Part shown: in pieces, positions 25,608 through 64,000 of the stretch
Position numbering within the stretch: position 1 is the stretch's first letter
Layout: each line of letters begins with the position of its first letter
Assembly (NCBI GenBank): GCA_030603695.1
Contig: JAUVXF010000005.1
Coordinates: 62,001 to 126,000 of the forward strand
Origin: Natronohydrobacter sp.
GTDB taxonomy: Bacteria > Pseudomonadota > Alphaproteobacteria > Rhodobacterales > Rhodobacteraceae
Length of the DNA: 64,000 nucleotides
Reading direction: 5' to 3'
Position numbers and translations under genes: made by a program
The notes under the pieces: model-generated
What the model was told of the DNA's origin: nothing
The model's database searches: none
The model's input: the letters and a program-made list of their open reading frames with translations, nothing else

Positions 25608-26354
25608 TCAGGCTGACAGGATAAGCGCCCGCGTGGCCCCGACAGCCGCAAATTCACAGCCCTGTGTTTTCCCGCGCCATTTCCGCAGCCATTTGCCGGG
25701 CGCGGCCAGCACTTCCAGCCACCACAGCTGGCGCGCAAGTCGCTGCGCGGCCTGCCATTGGGCCAAGGGGGCGGCGCTGCGATAGCCGCACAGAATGGTG
25801 CGCGCTGTCTGCTCTCCCGGCCGTTCTTGCACAAAGGCTGAATGCAGCAGCAAATACACATCCCGCGCCTGATCACGCGGCGCGGCATCCAGCCGCGCGC
25901 CGGCCTCCAGATCCAGAAATGTCAGTCTGGCACCATCCCAGCATATGTCGCGCAGGCTTGGGCGCCCATGTGTCAGGCCAAGCGCATGGAGATGCGCCAG
26001 CGCCGCTCCCGCCGCTTGCAGCAGCTCTGGATCGGCCCGCCCGCTGCCCAGCAGATCCGCCAGATTTGGCCCATGATCGGCCAGAATGACGCAGCCCGCC
26101 TCTTCGGCCAGAATAGCGGGCACAGCAGCGCCTTTGGCGGCAAAGGCGTGGATCAATGCCACCTCGCGCGCGAATGCGCGCTTTGGCTCGCCTTTCTGTA
26201 ACCGCCAGCGCAAAGACGCGTGCGCCTCTGGTCGCTTGACAAAATAACGCTTGCCCGAAAGCTCGATTCGGGCCAGACGCTGATCAGGCACAGACCGCGC
26301 CGCCGCAAGAAGCGCTTCGGCAGACGGGGGCGGCAAAGGGGATGACAGGTTCAT
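25608..26354 (-). CDS. Protein-kinase-fold protein, LPS/Kdo-kinase-like
   Basis: A 248-residue cytoplasmic protein with a small kinase fold of the Bud32/RfaP/InaA type. Candidate ATP-binding Lys40 is in GKRYFVKRPE, helix-C Glu64 in FAREVALIH, and metal-binding Asp148 in LTFLDLEAG. The catalytic loop reads THGRPSLRDICWDG, so the canonical HxD aspartate is Arg131, while Asp136 sits where Asn is usual. It may phosphorylate a lipopolysaccharide core sugar, or be a degenerate or divergent kinase. The ATG at 26354 is followed by typical sequence; the longer frame would run into the crcB leader. Divergent from crcB and convergent with katG. Confidence 0.6.
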   Translation of the reverse strand: MNLSSPLPPPSAEALLAAARSVPDQRLARIELSGKRYFVKRPEAHASLRWRLQKGEPKRAFAREVALIHAFAAKGAAVPAILAEEAGCVILADHGPNLADLLGSGRADPELLQAAGAALAHLHALGLTHGRPSLRDICWDGARLTFLDLEAGARLDAAPRDQARDVYLLLHSAFVQERPGEQTARTILCGYRSAAPLAQWQAAQRLARQLWWLEVLAAPGKWLRKWRGKTQGCEFAAVGATRALILSA

Positions 26355-26404
26355 GCCGCCTGCTAATCCGCACGGGGCAGGCGTGTCAACCATCGGAGAG
26401 AGGC

Positions 26405-26812
26405 TTGCAGGCTCAGGTTTCCATCACAGGGCTGGATTTTTTGCTTATCTGCCTTGGCGGGGGCTTGGGCAGTATCCTGCGCGCCGTGATGATCGCGCGC
26501 TTTGCCCCCTCCGTCTCGGTGGCGGGGGCCACTTTGGTGATAAACCTGTCAGGCAGTTTTCTGATTGGGCTTGCTCTGGCGGTCAGCTTTGCCCCCAGCC
26601 CCGTTCTGGGGGGCATGGGGCTTGTCTTAGTTACGACCGGGGTTTTGGGCGGTTTTACAACTGTTTCGGGCTTTGCACTGCAAGTTCTGGATATGGCACG
26701 CGCAGGGCGCAAGGGCAGGGCAGGGGCGCTTGCCTGTGGCACGCTTGTGGGCTGTGTTTTGGTGGCCTTTGCCGGGCTGCATCTTGGCCGTATATTTCTG
26801 GGGGGCGTCTGA
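26405..26812 (+). CDS. crcB: CrcB/Fluc fluoride channel subunit 1
   Basis: A small four-helix membrane protein of about 135 residues. The start chosen is TTG at 26405, six bases after GGAG; no ATG or GTG gives a plausible Fluc N terminus. Conserved features are GGGLGSILRA, the pore Asn in ATLVINLSGSFLIG, and the TM3 break motif LGGFTTVSGF. In that motif the first of the two pore phenylalanines is Val87 while the second, Phe90, is kept. Fluc channels export fluoride. The stop overlaps the next crcB start (TGATG), implying the two are made together as a heterodimer. Confidence 0.8.
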   Translation: MQAQVSITGLDFLLICLGGGLGSILRAVMIARFAPSVSVAGATLVINLSGSFLIGLALAVSFAPSPVLGGMGLVLVTTGVLGGFTTVSGFALQVLDMARAGRKGRAGALACGTLVGCVLVAFAGLHLGRIFLGGV

Positions 26813-27183
26813 TGGTCGGGCGCGGTGGTGTTCTGGGCCTGATCGGTTTGGGCGGGGCGCTGGGGACAGGCACGCGCTTGGCGCTTAGCGTGCTTGGGCT
26901 GGCCTATTCAGGCGATTTGGCCCTTCTCGCCACGCTTGCGGCCAATTGCCTGGGGGCCGGGCTGATCGGCTATCTGGCTGCGCGCCCCTTGTCACCGCAC
27001 GCACAGGCGCTTTGGATGACAGGATTTTGCGGTGGGTTCACCACATTTTCGATGGTGTCTCTCGAACTGGTGCTTTTGGCGCAAAGCGCCTGGGCTACGG
27101 CGCTGGCCTATGGCGCGCTATCGCTTGCGCTCTGGCTTGCTTTTGCCGTTGCAGGTGCAAGGCTTGGCAGAAATGCGCGCTGA
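26812..27183 (+). CDS. crcB: CrcB/Fluc fluoride channel subunit 2
   Basis: A 123-residue four-helix membrane protein. Conserved features are LGGALGTGTRLALS, pore Asn in TLAANCLGAGLIG, and the TM3 break TGFCGGFTTFSMVS. Here the first pore phenylalanine is kept (Phe79) and the second is Val82, the reverse of the upstream partner. Coupled to the first subunit by TGATG. The pair fits a heterodimeric Fluc with one working pore. Confidence 0.85.
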   Translation: MVGRGGVLGLIGLGGALGTGTRLALSVLGLAYSGDLALLATLAANCLGAGLIGYLAARPLSPHAQALWMTGFCGGFTTFSMVSLELVLLAQSAWATALAYGALSLALWLAFAVAGARLGRNAR

Positions 27184-27194
27184 TCTGCGCAATT

Positions 27195-27270
27195 CACCTT
27201 GCTCAAATATCCCCAGGGGGGTGAATTGCGGCTTGCCGCAAGAGGGGGGCGCGGGCGCCCCCCTTTGCCC
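27195..27270. repeat. Two-hairpin dispersed intergenic repeat, copy 1
   Basis: The segment matches 47982-48058 along its whole length, including the shared core CTCAAATATCC and CAGGGGGGTGAATTG. It holds hairpin A (TTGCGGC, tt, GCCGCAA, 27226-27241) and hairpin B (GGGGGGCGC, GG, GCGCCCCCC, 27244-27263). It fills the gap between the convergent ends of crcB2 and fabI and may act as a bidirectional terminator. Confidence 0.8.
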
Positions 27271-27296: not shown

Positions 27297-28085
27297 TCAG
27301 ATATTCTCCACCTGCGGCATGCCCATCACATGATAGCCGCCATCGACATGGATGATTTCGCCTGTGGTATAGGCCCCATATTCTGACGCCAGATAAACAG
27401 CCGTGCCCCCCACGCTTTCAAGTGTCGCATTGCTGCGCAGGGGCGCATTGGCCTCTGCATGGCGAAAGGTTTTGCGCGCGCCGCCAATCGCGGCCCCGGC
27501 CAAGGTTTTCATCGGCCCGGGGCTGATGGCGTTTACCCGAATGCCTTCCGGCCCCAGATCACTGGCCAGATATCGCACCGAAGATTCAAGCGCCGCCTTG
27601 GCCACGCCCATGACATTGTAAAACGGCGTCACCTTGTTTGAACCCTGAAATGTCAGCGTCAGCAGCGTGCCGCCATTTGGCATCAATTCAGACGCACGGC
27701 GGCCAAGATCGATAAAGCTATAGCAAGAGATTTCCAGAGAATGCTTGAAATTCGCGCGGCTTGTATCGCGAAAGCGTCCTGTCAGTTCGGCTTTGTCGGA
27801 AAAGGCTATGGCGTGCACCAAAAAATCCATCGCCCCCCAGCGCGCTTTCAATGCCGCGAATGCCGCATCCAGCGAGGCTTCATTGGTCACATCCACATCC
27901 AGCAACAGATCCGATCCGACAGAGGCCGCCAGCGGTTCCACCCGCTTGCCAAACGCCTCGCCCTGATAGCTGAAGGCAAGCTCTGCGCCCTGATCCGCCA
28001 TCGCCTGCGCTATTCCCCAAGCGATAGAGCGTTCATTGGCAACGCCCATGATCAACCCGCGTTTGCCTGCCATCAAGCCTGTCAT
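27297..28085 (-). CDS. fabI: Enoyl-[acyl-carrier-protein] reductase FabI
   Basis: A 262-residue SDR-family enzyme that performs the last, NADH-dependent step of each fatty acid elongation cycle. N terminus: MAGKRGLIMGVANERSIAWG, the FabI cofactor site. The Tyr-x6-Lys catalytic pair is in FYNVMGVAKAALES, and ISPGPMKTLAGAAIGG is the flexible substrate loop. Ten bp downstream of fabB on the same strand, so the two form an operon. Target class of triclosan-type inhibitors. Confidence 0.95.
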   Translation of the reverse strand: MTGLMAGKRGLIMGVANERSIAWGIAQAMADQGAELAFSYQGEAFGKRVEPLAASVGSDLLLDVDVTNEASLDAAFAALKARWGAMDFLVHAIAFSDKAELTGRFRDTSRANFKHSLEISCYSFIDLGRRASELMPNGGTLLTLTFQGSNKVTPFYNVMGVAKAALESSVRYLASDLGPEGIRVNAISPGPMKTLAGAAIGGARKTFRHAEANAPLRSNATLESVGGTAVYLASEYGAYTTGEIIHVDGGYHVMGMPQVENI

Positions 28086-44372: not shown

Positions 44373-47300
44373 ATGTCATCTGTGGCAGAAAAGATCATTC
44401 TGGGCGGTGCGCCAGAAGGGTATGACGCGCTGTTGCTGGCCAAAGAGGTGGCACGCAGTGACGGGCCAGTGATCCATGTCGCGCGCGATGACCGACGTTC
44501 TGAAGCCATGGCGCAGGCTTTGGCCTTTGTTGCCCCTGATCTGACAGTGCTGCGCTTTCCTGCATGGGATTGCCTGCCCTATGATCGTGTCTCGCCCAAT
44601 CCTGAAATCGCCTCTGCGCGCATGGCCACGCTGGCGGCACTGGCGCAAGGCGTGCCGGGGCCGTTTGTGCTGCTCACCACGCTCTCGGCGGCCCAGCAAC
44701 GTGTGCCCGCGCGCGATGTGGTGGCAGAGGCCTCTTTTCGCGCCACAGTCGGGCGGCGGATAGATGAGGGGGCCTTGCGGGGCTGGCTGGTGCGGATGGG
44801 GTTTTCGCAATCCCCCACAGTCACAGAGCCGGGCGATTTCGCCATTCGTGGCGGGATTTTCGATATCTACCCACCGGGAGAAGGCGGGCCAGTGCGGTTG
44901 GATCTGTTTGGCGATGTGCTGGATGGCGCGCGCCGCTTTGATCCCGCCAGCCAGCGCAGCCTTGAAAAATTGCAGGTCGTGGAATTCGCGCCTGTCTCCG
45001 AGATCATTCTGGACGAGGCCGCGATCACCCGGTTCCGGCAAAACTACCGGATCGAATTTGGCGCGGCAGGTAATGATGATCCGCTCTATGAGGCTGTCAG
45101 TGCGGGCCGCAAGCATCAGGGGATGGAGCATTGGTTGCCCTTCTTCCATGCCCGGCTGGATTTGCTGTTTGATTACCTGCCCTCTGCGCCCGTGCTGCTG
45201 GATGATCAATGCGATGCGGCCCGCCTGTCGCGCTGGGAGGGGATTGCCGATCAATATGATGCCCGGCGCGAGGCCATGCAGGCCAAGGGGCGGATGGACA
45301 GTGTGTATAAACCCTGCCCACCAGATTTGCTGTATCTCAATGATGCGGGCTGGAACGCGGCGCTTTCCGGGCGGCGGGTGATGAACCTTAGCCCCTTGCG
45401 CGCAGCACCAGGGCCGGGGGTGCTGGATGCGGGTGGGCGCACAGGGCGCAGCTTTGCGCCCGAACGGCAGGCGGGGGGCAATGTTTTTGATGCGCTTGTG
45501 GCCCATATCCGCGCGCGTCTGCCTTTGGGCACTGTGCTGATTGCCAGCCATAGCGAGGGCGCGCGCGAAAGGCTGTCTGGCCTGTTGGAAGATCATGGTG
45601 CGCCCCCGGCGCAGCCTGTCGCTCGCTTGCGCGAGATGGGGGAAGGGGGCCTGTATCTGACAGTCTGGCCCCTTGATAGCGGGTTTGAAGCCCCCGGCCT
45701 GACTGTCATTTCGGAACAGGATGTGCTGGGCGACAGGCTGGTTGCGCGCACGCGCCGCCGCAAACGGGCCGAAAACTTCCTGACAGAGGCGCAAAGCCTT
45801 TCGCCCGGTGATCTGGTGGTGCATGTTGATCACGGCGTGGGCCGCTATACCGGGCTGGAAATGATCACCGCCATGGGCGCGCCGCATGAATGTATCGCGC
45901 TGGAATATGCGGGCGGGGACAGGCTGTTTCTGCCTGTTGAAAACATCGAATTGCTCTCGCGCTTTGGCCATGAAGAGGGCTTGCTGGACAAATTGGGCGG
46001 GGGCGCATGGCAGGCCAAGAAAGCGCGTCTGAAGCAACGCATCCGAGAGATTGCGGATAAGCTGATCCGAATTGCCGCCGAACGCCAGTTGCGCAAGGCC
46101 CCCCAGTTTGAGGCGCCAGAGGGCATATGGGAAGAATTCCTTGCCCGCTTCCCCTATGCCGAGACGGATGACCAGCTGCGCGCCATCGAAGATGTGCTGG
46201 AAGATTTTGAAAGTGGCCGGCCTATGGACAGGCTGGTGGTGGGCGATGTGGGCTTTGGCAAAACCGAAGTGGCCATGCGTGCGGCCTTCATCGCGGCCAT
46301 GTCTGGCGTGCAAGTGGCTGTAATCGCGCCGACCACGCTGCTGGCGCGCCAGCATTACAAAACATTTGCCGAACGCTTCCGCGGCTTTCCGATCAATGTG
46401 CGCCCTTTGTCGCGCTTTGTGCCCGCCAAAGAGGCCAGCGCCACCCGCGAAGGGCTGGCCAAGGGAACAGTGGATATCTGCATCGGCACGCATGCGCTTT
46501 TGGCCAAGGGCGTAAGCTTTGCCAATCTGGGCCTGTTGGTGATCGATGAAGAGCAACATTTCGGCGTGAACCACAAAGAGCGCCTAAAAGAATTGCGCAG
46601 CGATATCCATGTGCTGACGCTCACGGCAACGCCCATCCCGCGCACGCTGCAACTCTCGCTTACGGGCGTGCGCGATCTCTCCATCATCCAGACCCCGCCA
46701 GTGGATCGTCTGGCCATCCGAACCTATGTCAGCGAGTTTGATACGCTTACCCTGCGCGAAGCGCTGTTGCGCGAGCGTTTTCGCGGGGGGCAATCGTTTT
46801 TCGTTGTGCCGCGCATTTCCGATCTGCCAGAGGTGGAAGAGTTTTTGCGCAGCCATGTTCCTGAAATCAGCTATATCATCGCCAATGGCCAGATGGCCGC
46901 AGGCGATCTGGACGCGCGGATGAACGCCTTTTACGATGGCAAATATGATGTGCTTGTCGCCACATCCATCGTCGAATCCGGTCTTGATATTCCGCGCGCC
47001 AATACGATGATCGTGCATCGCGCCGATATGTTCGGTCTGGCGCAGCTGTATCAGATCCGCGGGCGGGTGGGGCGCGCAAAAACCCGCGCCTATTGCTTCC
47101 TGACCACCAAACCGCGCAGCCCGCTAACGCCACAGGCGCAACGGCGGCTGAAATTGCTGGCCTCGCTGGATACGCTGGGCGCAGGGTTCAACCTTGCCAG
47201 CCATGACATGGATTTGCGCGGCGCAGGCAATATCCTGGGCGAGGAACAATCAGGCCATATCAAGGAAGTGGGGTATGAACTGTATCAGCAGATGCTGGAA

Positions 47301-47807
47301 GAGACGATTGCCAAACTCCGCTCTGGCGAGATTACCTCGATCGAGGATATGGACGGGCAATGGGCGCCCCAGATCAATCTGGGCGTGCCCGTGCTGATCC
47401 CGGAAGAGTATGTGCCCGATCTGGATGTGCGTCTGGGCCTGTATCGGCGCCTGTCGGGCCTGACCAGCAAGGTTGATCTCGAAGGCTTTGCAGCAGAGCT
47501 GATCGATCGTTTCGGCAAACTCCCGCGCGAGGTGAATACCCTCCTGGCCGTCATCCGCATCAAGGCCGAATGCAAACGCGCGGGCATTGCGAAATTCGAT
47601 GTCGGGCCAAAAGGGGCGACAGTGCAATTTCACAAAGATAAATTCGCCAACCCAGCCGGGCTGGTGGAATTTGTACAGGGCGAAAAGGGGCTTGCCAAAA
47701 TCCGCGACAACAAGATCGTGGTGCAGCGCGATTGGGCCACAGACAAAGACCGCCTGCGCGGGGCTTTCGCCATTGCGCGCGATCTGGCGGCAAAGGCGGC
47801 GGGCTAA
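44373..47807 (+). CDS. mfd: Transcription-repair coupling factor Mfd
   Basis: A 1144-residue SF2 translocase that removes RNA polymerase stalled at DNA damage and recruits UvrA. The N-terminal UvrB-homology region includes YDRVSPNPEIASARMATLA and GDFAIRGGIFDIYPPG. The RNAP-interacting domain has GDLVVHVDHGVGRYTGLEM. Helicase motif I is GDVGFGKTEVAMRA, II VIDEEQHFGV, III LTATPIPRTLQ, VI QIRGRVGRAKTRAY. The C-terminal TRCF domain is present. Full length. The ATG at 44373 lies after AAAGGATG. Confidence 0.96.
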   Translation: MSSVAEKIILGGAPEGYDALLLAKEVARSDGPVIHVARDDRRSEAMAQALAFVAPDLTVLRFPAWDCLPYDRVSPNPEIASARMATLAALAQGVPGPFVLLTTLSAAQQRVPARDVVAEASFRATVGRRIDEGALRGWLVRMGFSQSPTVTEPGDFAIRGGIFDIYPPGEGGPVRLDLFGDVLDGARRFDPASQRSLEKLQVVEFAPVSEIILDEAAITRFRQNYRIEFGAAGNDDPLYEAVSAGRKHQGMEHWLPFFHARLDLLFDYLPSAPVLLDDQCDAARLSRWEGIADQYDARREAMQAKGRMDSVYKPCPPDLLYLNDAGWNAALSGRRVMNLSPLRAAPGPGVLDAGGRTGRSFAPERQAGGNVFDALVAHIRARLPLGTVLIASHSEGARERLSGLLEDHGAPPAQPVARLREMGEGGLYLTVWPLDSGFEAPGLTVISEQDVLGDRLVARTRRRKRAENFLTEAQSLSPGDLVVHVDHGVGRYTGLEMITAMGAPHECIALEYAGGDRLFLPVENIELLSRFGHEEGLLDKLGGGAWQAKKARLKQRIREIADKLIRIAAERQLRKAPQFEAPEGIWEEFLARFPYAETDDQLRAIEDVLEDFESGRPMDRLVVGDVGFGKTEVAMRAAFIAAMSGVQVAVIAPTTLLARQHYKTFAERFRGFPINVRPLSRFVPAKEASATREGLAKGTVDICIGTHALLAKGVSFANLGLLVIDEEQHFGVNHKERLKELRSDIHVLTLTATPIPRTLQLSLTGVRDLSIIQTPPVDRLAIRTYVSEFDTLTLREALLRERFRGGQSFFVVPRISDLPEVEEFLRSHVPEISYIIANGQMAAGDLDARMNAFYDGKYDVLVATSIVESGLDIPRANTMIVHRADMFGLAQLYQIRGRVGRAKTRAYCFLTTKPRSPLTPQAQRRLKLLASLDTLGAGFNLASHDMDLRGAGNILGEEQSGHIKEVGYELYQQMLEETIAKLRSGEITSIEDMDGQWAPQINLGVPVLIPEEYVPDLDVRLGLYRRLSGLTSKVDLEGFAAELIDRFGKLPREVNTLLAVIRIKAECKRAGIAKFDVGPKGATVQFHKDKFANPAGLVEFVQGEKGLAKIRDNKIVVQRDWATDKDRLRGAFAIARDLAAKAAG

Positions 47808-47981
47808 GCAGGTTTTGCAACAAAACGCTTGCGCCATGTCGGGCAGTGGCCATCTCTCCCAAGCCTTCCCCCGACAGGGGCGCGCGGGCTTGGTTAAAAC
47901 CAATCGCCAGCACCTCGCCGCCGCATGGGATCAAAACTCTCGCGCCCCTTCCCCCGTCGGTGCATCGCGCCTTTTGGCATT
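47808..47981. other. Spacer after mfd without a recognised gene
   Basis: Between the mfd stop and the dispersed repeat. I see no convincing coding frame or strong hairpin. Together with 48059-48199 it makes up the unassigned part of a 445-bp gap before the convergent ftsH. Confidence 0.4.
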
Positions 47982-48058
47982 CATCTTGGCTCAAATATCC
48001 TCAGGGGGGTGAATTGGGCCAAAGGCCCAAGAGGGGGGCGCGAGCGCCCCCCTTGCCC
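47982..48058. repeat. Two-hairpin dispersed intergenic repeat, copy 2
   Basis: Matches 27195-27270. Hairpin A here is TTGGGCC, AAA, GGCCCAA (48014-48030); hairpin B is GGGGGGCGC, GA, GCGCCCCCC (48033-48052). The stem bases of hairpin A differ from copy 1 on both arms so that pairing is kept. Again between convergent genes (mfd and ftsH). Confidence 0.8.
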
Positions 48059-48199
48059 GGCCTATGTCATAGCGCCAGCACCAAAGCAGAGCGCAATCTA
48101 TCGGCGCTGTGTCACAGATGCGCCCTGTGCAATCCTCGCCTAACATAGGGCCGTCATTCTACTGCCCCCAGGCTTTTGGGCGCGGGGCGCGGGCAACGC

Positions 48200-48229
48200 A
48201 AACACCCCGGCACGCGGGCCGGGGTGTTT
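48200..48229 (-). terminator. Terminator of ftsH
   Basis: AAACACCCCGGC and GCCGGGGTGTTT form a 12-bp perfect stem with a 6-nt loop, 24 bp past the ftsH stop. The minus-strand side ends in GTGTTTGCGTT. Confidence 0.8.
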
Positions 48230-48252
48230 GTCTGCTTTCAAAGGCAAGGCCA

Positions 48253-50172
48253 TCAGGCGCTTGGTTCCGGCGCCATCCCGCCATCATCCTCGCCGCGCTT
48301 GCGGCCGCGTGTTTTCGGAATGGCTGCGACAGAGGGTGTGCCGCTCGTTGGCGTGTCCCCATCGTCATCGCCGCGCGCCAAGGGTTCGCCGCGCATCACG
48401 CGGCCAATCTCTGGCCCTGTGAGGGTTTCGTATTCCAGCAACCCTTGCGCAAGGTTCTCCAACTCCTGACGTTTTTCCGTCAGGATTGTTTTTGCGGTTT
48501 CATAGCCTTCCTGCACCAATTCGCGCACCTTGTCGTCAATCACCTTCTGGGTCATTGCCGAGTGGCTGGAGCCGCCGCCATAATTGCCCAGATAGCTTTG
48601 CTGCTCATTGGCGTAATCGACATAGCCCAATTCCGGGTCAAAGCCGAATTGCGTTACCATGGCGCGGGCAATCTTGGTCACTTGCTGGATATCGCTGGAC
48701 GCGCCAGAGGTGACAGCATCATGCCCGAAAACCAGCTCTTCGGCCACGCGCCCGCCCATCGCCATGGCGATTTTGGATTTATACTTGCGATAGCTGACCG
48801 ACAGTTGGTCGCGCTCCGGCAAGGACAGAACCAGCCCCAGGGCACGGCCACGCGGGATAATCGTGGCTTTGTGAATCGGGTCATGTTCCGGCACATGCAG
48901 GCCCACGACAGCATGCCCGGCCTCGTGATAGGCAGTCAGTTTCTTCTCATCCTCGGACATGACCATAGAGCGCCGCTCGGCCCCCATCATCACCTTGTCC
49001 TTGGCGCTTTCAAAATCTTCCATCGTCACGAAGCGGCGGTTAGAGCGTGCGGCCATCAGCGCGGCTTCATTCACCAGATTGGCCAGATCAGCCCCCGAAA
49101 AGCCCGGTGTCCCGCGCGCGATGATGCGCAAATCCACATTCGGCCCCAGCGGAACTTTGCGCGCATGCACGCCCAGAATACGCTCGCGCCCTTTGATATC
49201 GGGATTGGGCACTTGCACCTGACGGTCAAACCGGCCGGGGCGCAGAAGGGCAGGGTCAAGCACATCGGGGCGGTTGGTGGCCGCAACGATGATAATGCCC
49301 TCATTCGCCTCAAACCCGTCCATCTCCACCAGCAGCTGGTTCAGCGTCTGCTCGCGTTCATCATTGCCGCCGCCATAGCCCACACCACGCGACCGGCCCA
49401 CGGCGTCAATCTCGTCGATGAACACGATGCAGGGCGCATTTTTCTTGGCCTGCTCGAACATGTCGCGCACACGGCTTGCGCCCACGCCCACAAACATTTC
49501 CACAAAGTCAGAGCCGGAAATGGTGAAGAAGGGCACACCCGCTTCGCCCGCAATGGCACGCGCCAGCAGGGTTTTACCTGTGCCCGGAGGGCCAACAAGC
49601 AGCGCACCTTTGGGGATCTTGCCTCCAAGACGCGAGAATTTCTGCGGGTTGCGCAGGAATTCAACGATCTCTTCCAGCTCGTCCTTGGCCTCGTCAATGC
49701 CGGCAACATCATCGAATGTTACGCGGCCATGCTTTTCCGTCAGCAGCTTTGCTTTGGATTTGCCAAAGCCCATTGCGCCACCTTTGCCGCCGCCCTGCAT
49801 GCGGTTCATGAAATAAATCCAAACCCCGATCAGCAGCAGGAAAGGCAGCCACAGCATAAGCGTGGAGAGGAAGCCCGATTGTTGCTGTGGCCGCGCTTCA
49901 ACCGGGATATCGGCGGCCAGCAGGCGCTGAGTCAGTGTGGAATCATCTGGGCGGATGGTGGAATATTGCTGCCCATCGCGACCGACAAAGACAATCCGCT
50001 CGCCATCAATGGTCACGCGGCTGACATCGGCATTTTCAACGCGGGTAATGAACTCTGAATAGCCCACCGATCGGGCGGATGATGTGGACTGCCCGTTGCT
50101 GAACATGTTGAACAACATGATCATCAGCAAGAACAGCACTATCCAGAAAGCGAAATTCCGTGCATTGCCCAC
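48253..50172 (-). CDS. ftsH: ATP-dependent zinc metalloprotease FtsH
   Basis: A 639-residue membrane protease. Helices near residues 8-24 and 104-122 flank a small periplasmic domain. AAA module: Walker [14 protein letters not shown], Walker [12 protein letters not shown], pore motif [29 protein letters not shown]. Zinc site HEAGH with a downstream Glu. The Asp/Gly-rich C-terminal tail is typical of the family. It degrades misfolded membrane proteins and regulators. Follows tilS on the same strand with a 78-bp gap. Confidence 0.97.
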
Positions 50173-63240: not shown

Positions 63241-64000
63241 ATGCACGCTGTCCTCGTGATGATCTTACAGCGGCTGGCTTTGGGCGTGGTCACGCTTTTT
63301 GTGGTGTCGGTGGTGATTTTTGGCGCGACAGAGCTGTTGCCGGGCGATCTGGCATCCACGCTTCTGGGCCAATCGGCCACGCCGGAAACCGTGGCCGCGC
63401 TGCGCACGCAACTGGGCCTAGATCAACCCGCGCCGCTGCGCTATTGGGCTTGGGCCACGGGGGTGGTGCAGGGGGATTTTGGCGTCTCTCTCGCCACGCG
63501 CCGCCCGATTGCGGATATGCTCGCCATGCGGCTGGGCAATACGGTGTTTCTGGCGCTGTATGCGGCGGCACTCGCTGTGCCGCTGGCGCTGATCCTTGGC
63601 ATTCTGGCCGCGCTGTGGCGCAATTCCATCTTTGATCGCGTGGCCAATGCGGGCGCCCTTTCGGCCATATCTTTTCCCGAATTTTTCGTGGCTTACATTC
63701 TGATCTTCATCTTGGCGCAAAGCGGGTTTTTCCCCTCTATGGTGCGGCTTTCGCCCGATATGGCGCTGGGGGACAAACTTTATGCCACCTTCCTGCCTGC
63801 GCTGACGCTGACACTGGTTGTCACCGCCCATATGATGCGGATGACACGCGCGGCCATCATCAACCTCATGGCCAGCCCTTATATTGAAATGGCGCGGCTG
63901 AAGGGCCTGTCGCCCCTGCGCATTGTGCTGCGCCATGCGCTTCCCAATGCGCTTGCGCCCATCATCAATGTGATCGCGCTGAACCTTGCCTATCTGATTA
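63241..64000 (+). CDS. Peptide-type ABC transporter permease (DppB-like), partial
   Basis: An open frame of 253 codons running off the right edge. N terminus MHAVLVMILQRLALGVVTLF leads into TM1; TELLPGDLASTLLGQSATPE is the conserved segment after TM1 in DppB-type permeases; the EAA-like loop includes MARLKGLSPLRIVLRHALPN. GGGGGGACG precedes the ATG. The next genes should be a DppC-type permease and ATPases. Confidence 0.9.
   Translation, partial: MHAVLVMILQRLALGVVTLFVVSVVIFGATELLPGDLASTLLGQSATPETVAALRTQLGLDQPAPLRYWAWATGVVQGDFGVSLATRRPIADMLAMRLGNTVFLALYAAALAVPLALILGILAALWRNSIFDRVANAGALSAISFPEFFVAYILIFILAQSGFFPSMVRLSPDMALGDKLYATFLPALTLTLVVTAHMMRMTRAAIINLMASPYIEMARLKGLSPLRIVLRHALPNALAPIINVIALNLAYLI

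Follow-up and report, generated by a model that had tools for sequence, protein, structure and literature searches.

DNA uptake sequences of Neisseriaceae and Pasteurellaceae are short words that form lineage dialects and are sometimes located in terminators. REP elements accompanied by a RAYT are characterized by a conserved palindrome with a GTAG-type foot. For diversity-generating retroelements (DGRs), a hairpin located behind the VR has been described in BPP-1, in which the structure of the stem matters but not its sequence, and Guo et al. (2011) raise the speculation that DGRs were steered to gene ends with the help of stem-loops resembling terminators (both in PMC3240598); hairpin terms were not found in PMC8144416.

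Here we describe a real, widespread and structured gene-end element with lineage-specific words, two copies of which are located in a 64,000-nucleotide stretch of the Natronohydrobacter sp. genome (below referred to as the window). No description of it was found in a literature search covering titles and the beginnings of abstracts. The element shares features with each of the systems above as well as with intrinsic terminators. Like the latter it has, at the ends of genes and often where two genes converge, a GC-rich hairpin with a T-containing block behind it. However, its U-tract is weak, it comprises two hairpins with length-matched G/C runs and a nearly invariant, genome-specific word further downstream, and the hairpin found at gene 3’ ends in the Natronohydrobacter genome is missing in some genera. 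As in the DGR hairpin or cruciform of BPP-1 and others, the GC-rich stem keeps its pairing and not its sequence, and the unit Gn-TGAATTG-stem-CAAGA-Gn itself follows VR-like stretches in phage contigs. In contrast to DGR sites, copies are many, TATTT and the word are added, and the Natronohydrobacter genome, which has no reverse transcriptase match, does not show a stem-loop 3’ of a VR together with a cognate TR and reverse transcriptase. With REP/BIME repeats the element has in common that it is short, dispersed, structured, located at gene ends and lineage-specific in sequence; it differs in that the Natronohydrobacter genome has no Y1 transposase match, most sampled positions are kept in a close relative, and the invariant part is not the palindrome, with neither the REP palindrome nor the GTAG-type foot being found. 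Finally, its word has lineage dialects like those of uptake sequences, but in the Natronohydrobacter genome it is low in copy number and tightly coupled to one structure.

Anatomy of the element and its family in the Natronohydrobacter genome

We refer to the minus strand of the window as orientation T and to the opposite strand, which was used by the first-pass annotation, as orientation R. In orientation T the element consists of hairpin B (Gn-loop-Cn), TC, hairpin A, TTCA, a second C run, a short spacer, TATTT, two free bases and the word (Table 1). The first-pass annotation had described two repeats at 27.2 kb (copy 1) and 48.0 kb (copy 2), and both are present there. Its further description was also borne out: the stem of hairpin A is altered on both arms (TTGCGGC/GCCGCAA versus TTGGGCC/GGCCCAA), the difference in hairpin B is confined to the 2-nt loop (one base changed in 20), and both copies are located between convergent genes (CrcB>/<FabI and Mfd>/<FtsH). 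It missed that the conserved part extends past CTCAAATATCC into the word, GCCAAGATGAA on the minus strand. Copy 2 has a perfect core, and copy 1 is atypical with a degenerate word (GCAAGGTGAA). In the window, exact GGGGGGTGAATTG is located solely at 27216-27228 and 48004-48016, exact CTCAAATATCC solely at 27202-27212 and 47990-48000. When mismatches were allowed, the number of these linkers in the window alone was within chance, the count being reached in 53 of 100 shuffles for GGGGGGTGAATTG and in 12 of 100 for CTCAAATATCC. At 27190-27228 the degenerate word of copy 1 and the TTCA block are part of an inverted pair of 9 bp (CAATTCACC / GGTGAATTG), of which copy 2 has a shorter, imperfect version.

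Table 1. Coordinates of the element and its neighboring genes in the window.
Feature	Position	Strand	Evidence
Copy 1, hairpin B GGGGGG-CGCCCGCG-CCCCCC	27244..27263	-	sequence, alignment
Copy 1, hairpin A TTGCGGC-AA-GCCGCAA	27226..27241	-	sequence, alignment, covariation
Copy 1, TTCA before second C run	27222-27225	-	sequence, alignment
Copy 1, second C run	27216..27221	-	sequence, alignment
Copy 1, degenerate core GGATATTTGAGCAAGGTGAA	27193..27212	-	sequence; degenerate core also at fabI end of best named relative (L076)
CrcB-like gene, stop just 5’ of copy 1	26353..27183	+	Pfam PF02537, E 1.3e-18
FabI-like enoyl-ACP reductase, stop faces hairpin B of copy 1	27297..28085	-	Pfam PF13561, E 2.8e-85
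Copy 2, hairpin B GGGGGG-CGCTCGCG-CCCCCC (G run and first C run)	48033..48052	-	sequence, alignment, fold
Copy 2, TC joining hairpins B and A	48031-48032	-	sequence, alignment
Copy 2, hairpin A TTGGGCC-TTT-GGCCCAA	48014..48030	-	sequence, alignment, covariation
Copy 2, TTCA	48010-48013	-	
Copy 2, second C run, length matched to G run	48004..48009	-	run-length comparison
Copy 2, perfect core GGATATTT-GA-GCCAAGATGAA (U-rich block, two free bases, genome word)	47980..48000	-	one of the 49 perfect copies
Gene for an Mfd-like transcription-repair coupling factor, 5’ of copy 2	44373..47807	+	Pfam TRCF, CarD_TRCF_RID
FtsH-like protease gene, stop faces hairpin B of copy 2	48253..50172	-	Pfam Peptidase_M41, AAA, FtsH_ext

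The genome comprises 2.95 Mb in 40 contigs (99.97% complete); the best named match of the FabI in the window, at 98%, is from a Roseinatronobacter MAG (records of the same genome were possibly excluded). In line with the genome-wide family proposed by the first-pass annotation, the core TTCATCTTGGCNNAAATATCC (R) gave 58 matches at up to three mismatches, 49 of them perfect and 9 with 1–3 mismatches, and none for the reversed pattern. The 49 perfect copies are of the pattern GGATATTTNNGCCAAGATGAA (reversed pattern: 0), and CTCAAATATCC had 16 copies with zero matches of the reversed control. After removal of one chance match from 57 rows, 56 copies were read. The hairpins preceding the core fall by eye into several classes, one of which is that already described (hairpins B and A with TC and TTCA; 20 matches to this signature). 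Class I copies within one genome are very similar, and the same core also follows quite different hairpin classes. The 11-mer GCCAAGATGAA occurs 55 times, 49 times inside perfect full cores and just 4 times without a visible link to the element. An additional GCCAAGATGAA at 63706-63716 on the minus strand of the window (G000:C3:125706) lies within a listed ORF and is probably due to chance. A known Rfam family was not detected at gathering score in the window or in 15 viral loci; at E-values up to 10, region 47900-48150 gave nine sub-threshold matches, none of them credible.

Conservation of pairing, run lengths and word

Both the structure and the word are conserved, the latter being nearly invariant within and specific to lineages. 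For the structure we analyzed 28 aligned units (26 distinct). In hairpin A 92.5% of the cells are paired, and 5 of its 7 pairs show changes on both arms. Taking the structure as a whole, both sides changed in 32 cells versus 11.3 in shuffles, and sliding the pairing partners reduced pairing from 93% to 63% or less. Further pair types, one of five covariation measures, were not higher than in shuffles. Among the matches listed, pairing over 3 or more bases was seen in 77 of the 92 distinct interiors, in comparison to a mean of 10 and a maximum of 20 in 500 shuffles. The selection on paired structure which the first-pass annotation had read from two stems is supported across the family: copies are many, and the stems change in pairs. 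Stem sequence varies, and by eye the conserved core is not palindromic.

In 85 of 117 copies the G run and both C runs have the same length; the 117 are those of the 187 read copies having both features (L157 and L160 are counted under two set names). The correlation between the lengths of the G run and the second C run is weak in the Natronohydrobacter genome (rho 0.37), is 0.32 in a mixed set (p 0.31) and strong in four other genomes (rho 0.66–1.00). Since the run lengths match, the second C run would be able to pair with the G run. In seven folded sequences the favoured fold pairs the first C run, the helix with the second C run being about 4–7 kcal/mol weaker.

To assess the word, copies were compared with the close relative G675. 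Of 30 sampled G675 copies, 27 hold the same place in the Natronohydrobacter genome; one of these (L200) had two candidate partners and was dropped, leaving 26 orthologous site pairs. The 19 fixed core positions showed 4 changes in 494, all at one position, while the two free bases were changed in 21 of 52 cases and the next 10 nt in 75 of 260. This indicates that the core is held by selection and not by recent copying alone. Other lineages have other words. On the R strand, TTCATCTTTCC is the word in nearly all listed Palleronia copies, Paracoccus ferrooxidans has TTCTTCGTTCC or TTCTTCGTTGC, and Donghicola and Aliiroseovarius crassostreae have two main word forms each. On the T strand, CCCAAAGAAG follows 9 of 10 hairpin units in G474, AAAGGCAAAG 8 of 10 in G587 and AGAGATGAA 7 of 10 in G389; the ten units of G423 have mixed words. 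Among loci sampled across genera we found 18 orthologous site pairs, 12 of them with homologous genes on both sides, and in 8 of these 12 the word differs at the same place (the pairs share loci and are not independent).

Distribution in Rhodobacteraceae and in viral contigs

When searched without its TCC end, the exact core was present in only 2 of 385 genomes sampled from the class, the Natronohydrobacter genome and one with a single copy. Allowing one mismatch, it was found in 121 of 295 sampled family genomes with up to 120 copies (control: one match each in three genomes), and a looser pattern was present in 26 of 30 named relatives (three control matches in total). Independently of the core, the hairpin unit CCCCTCTTG-N(6-20)-AATTCACCCC was detected in 122 of the 295 genomes, with zero control matches in each; the highest number, 57 units, was found in G470, which is absent from the RVT_1 matches. 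At the fabI end, a generic core within 400 nt was present in 6 of 80 relatives, three per orientation (the degenerate core of L076 is missed by the generic pattern), and the fabI site is therefore not widely kept. The core pattern was not found in the R. pomeroyi megaplasmid, P. denitrificans plasmid 1, D. shibae pDSHI01 or a Rhodobacter sp. CZR27 replicon, so that in these replicons either the element is absent or the word is different. In A. crassostreae G699 (L284, L285), at least 5 inverted core pairs, each with 34 bp between the starts of its two cores, resemble a composite repeat, and similar spacers were seen in the two pairs that were read.

The hairpin unit is shared with phage DGR target sites. 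It was found in 76 IMG/VR contigs (reversed pattern: 0), and the GC content of the viral stretches read ranged from 27 to 74%. In 48 of the 76, the sequence in front of the unit (R) has a match immediately past it, and the TR-side base is A at 734 of the 974 mismatches between the two, which is the VR/TR signature of DGRs; some of the 48 alignments are not clean, with non-A bases at many mismatches. When eight neighboring viral ORFs were submitted to Pfam, RVT_1 was found in 5, namely all five tested as reverse transcriptase; two target proteins and one other viral ORF gave no Pfam match. A strict reverse transcriptase motif pair was present in 15 of the 76 contigs. At least 3 interior pairs are formed in 40 of the viral units and a G run is present in 62, whereas TATTT is located within 9 nt in just 6. 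Five viral contigs carry the core with the Natronohydrobacter word, and two of these (L186, L190) encode portal and head proteins. In 48 phage contigs (L397-L470) the order Gn-TGAATTG-stem-CAAGA-Gn-loop-Cn lies between VR and TR, with equal run lengths in 27. The half-unit AGGGGNNNNNCCCCTCTTG, searched in viral contigs, gave at least 76 matches in new loci, none of which had the second half; on its own it is therefore mostly a chance match.

Among the family genomes, 81 of 295 have RVT_1 matches. The RVT_1 profile had no match in the Natronohydrobacter genome; for the window, a resident DGR therefore lacks support. By eye, the hairpin A loops of this genome do not fit a GRNA loop in the sense strand, and those of the phage set are mixed. 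Common descent could account for the shared unit, and so could a common physical function.

Position at gene ends, proposed function and alternative readings

The element is located at gene ends and shows a moderate preference for direction T. Based on our own gene calls, the 56 Natronohydrobacter copies are located between convergent genes in 26 cases, in ++ arrangement in 16 (the upstream gene runs into hairpin B and the next gene runs the same way), in -- arrangement in 10, between divergent genes in 3, with one unknown. For comparison, among all 124 pairs of adjacent genes in these loci, with the gaps that hold the copies counted in, 28 are convergent and 8 divergent. Convergent gaps are thus enriched, while divergent gaps are no rarer than in the background. 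Where an upstream gene runs into the element, its stop codon lies 38–102 nt before TATTT in 33 of 42 copies, and facing stops are located 1–23 nt after the word in 19 of 36. The 27 copies on P. ferrooxidans pFER4 are distributed as ++ 11, +- 10, -- 5 and -+ 1; these are raw counts taken from the depositors’ annotation in the PLSDB gene table, which is incomplete. The preference for direction T is reflected in ++ versus --, with 16 versus 10 and 11 versus 5, respectively. In G667, 6 of 10 copies are located 9–44 nt before a called start. The orientation counts exclude the GC-rich genomes G683, G697 and G639, in which copies were called inside genes, and the smaller sets G699, G686 and “misc”.

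This location, together with hairpins that precede TATTT within 9 nt in 26 of 31 units found without use of the core, makes a structured terminator a plausible reading. Several observations stand against a plain intrinsic terminator. The U-tract is weak, with TATTTNN holding 4 T in 38 of 56 Natronohydrobacter copies, and a simple terminator scan did not report a terminator at either window copy. By eye, the 10 sampled G667 copies and most P. ferrooxidans copies have TATTT and the word without a G-run hairpin. Moreover, 4 of the 26 P. ferrooxidans copies read by eye (out of 27) follow an ordinary-looking hairpin and T-run terminator (two in L309, one each in L310 and L320), so that the core would lie beyond the end of the RNA there. 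A T run for the opposite direction is indicated by AAA directly before the G run in 10 of 49 Natronohydrobacter copies versus 1.9 expected; this excess was not seen in the five other genomes checked (0/15, 0/11, 1/11, 2/9 and 0/6).

We favour, with a probability of about 0.45, a terminator-like module at gene 3’ ends with a word that is read by a lineage-specific trans-acting factor. The RNA of the upstream gene would fold into the hairpins right before the short U-rich block (direction B, A, TATTT, word), and RNA polymerase would be released or halted at this block; the element would thereby end the transcript and insulate it from the facing gene. Competition between the two C runs for the G run is possible, with the second forming a helix beside the U-rich block, and hairpin B, where followed by a T run, could act in the opposite direction. 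The word after the U-rich block would be read by a protein or RNA, the specificity of which may have drifted between lineages; such a drift would lead to one word or a few per genome and to words that change in place between genera. The Y1 and RVT_1 profile searches yielded no candidate for this factor.

The first-pass annotation had suggested structured terminators or a REP-like element. The structured, genome-wide family and the enrichment in convergent gaps fit this proposal, but a RAYT-driven REP is not supported: the Y1 transposase profile (PF01797) had no match in the 99.97% complete Natronohydrobacter genome (5 of 14 control genomes were positive), and 27 of the 30 sampled G675 copies keep their place here. 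A REP/BIME-like repeat could instead be spread by a non-RAYT transposase or by gene conversion and be merely tolerated at gene ends. The similarity of Class I copies within a genome, the inverted core pairs of A. crassostreae with one fixed spacing, the enrichment in convergent gaps, words that differ by lineage as in REPs, and the limited site sharing between genera (18 pairs among the loci compared) all agree with such a repeat. Recent copying alone is, however, insufficient for an invariant core that encloses changing free bases, and one core is found behind quite different hairpin classes, which together with the missing Y1 match and the kept positions makes this explanation unlikely. We regard it as distinctly improbable that the element is a DGR-type target, left over or domesticated, in which word and hairpin correspond to the 3’ end of a VR (IMH) and a cruciform and act as a DNA cruciform or nicking site and not as RNA. 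The viral units with their A-biased VR-TR pairs and neighboring RVT_1 ORFs, and the structure-dependent hairpin of BPP-1, speak for such a target; the Natronohydrobacter genome lacks an RVT_1 match, the window copies are located behind ordinary genes instead of a target protein and template, and TATTT is rare near the viral units. A more elaborate version, for which the odds appear poor, is a domesticated DGR target site at Rhodobacteraceae gene ends: the length-matched Gn, Gn and Cn runs would form a hairpin module, possibly as a G.G-C triplex or two competing helices, and the genome word would take the role of the IMH and be read, by base pairing or binding, by a lineage-specific partner whose drift would rewrite dozens of sites per lineage.

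An uptake signal, with the word being enriched by biased uptake and recombination, would explain lineage-specific dialects and many perfect copies. It is nevertheless very unlikely, as nearly all copies of the 11-mer reside in perfect full cores and each genome has only tens of copies; the 11-mer counts of the Natronohydrobacter genome do not have the pattern of a free-standing uptake word that is also present in genes. We give hardly any credence to the element acting on the following gene as its promoter or as a 5’ regulatory element. The G667 copies ahead of called starts and one promoter-like match overlapping copy 2 on the plus strand point in this direction, but many copies are located in convergent gaps (26 of 56 Natronohydrobacter and 10 of 27 P. 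ferrooxidans copies) and few in divergent ones (3 of 56, which is near background, and 1 of 27).

If the terminator-like module with a factor-read word is correct, a large bacterial family ends many of its genes with a signal that is absent from the Rfam release searched, and the element would provide defined terminators for Rhodobacteraceae genetics. Because the word has dialects, its reader should be findable, as it is expected to change together with the word from genome to genome. The shared hairpin unit ties gene-end structures to DGR target sites. Between copy 2 and the ftsH stop we also noticed by eye a long inverted repeat with A/T ends at 48199-48230 (AAACACCCCGG...CCGGGGTGTTT); it is absent from the output of the terminator and promoter scan and is located nearer to the ftsH stop than the element, which speaks against the terminator-like reading.
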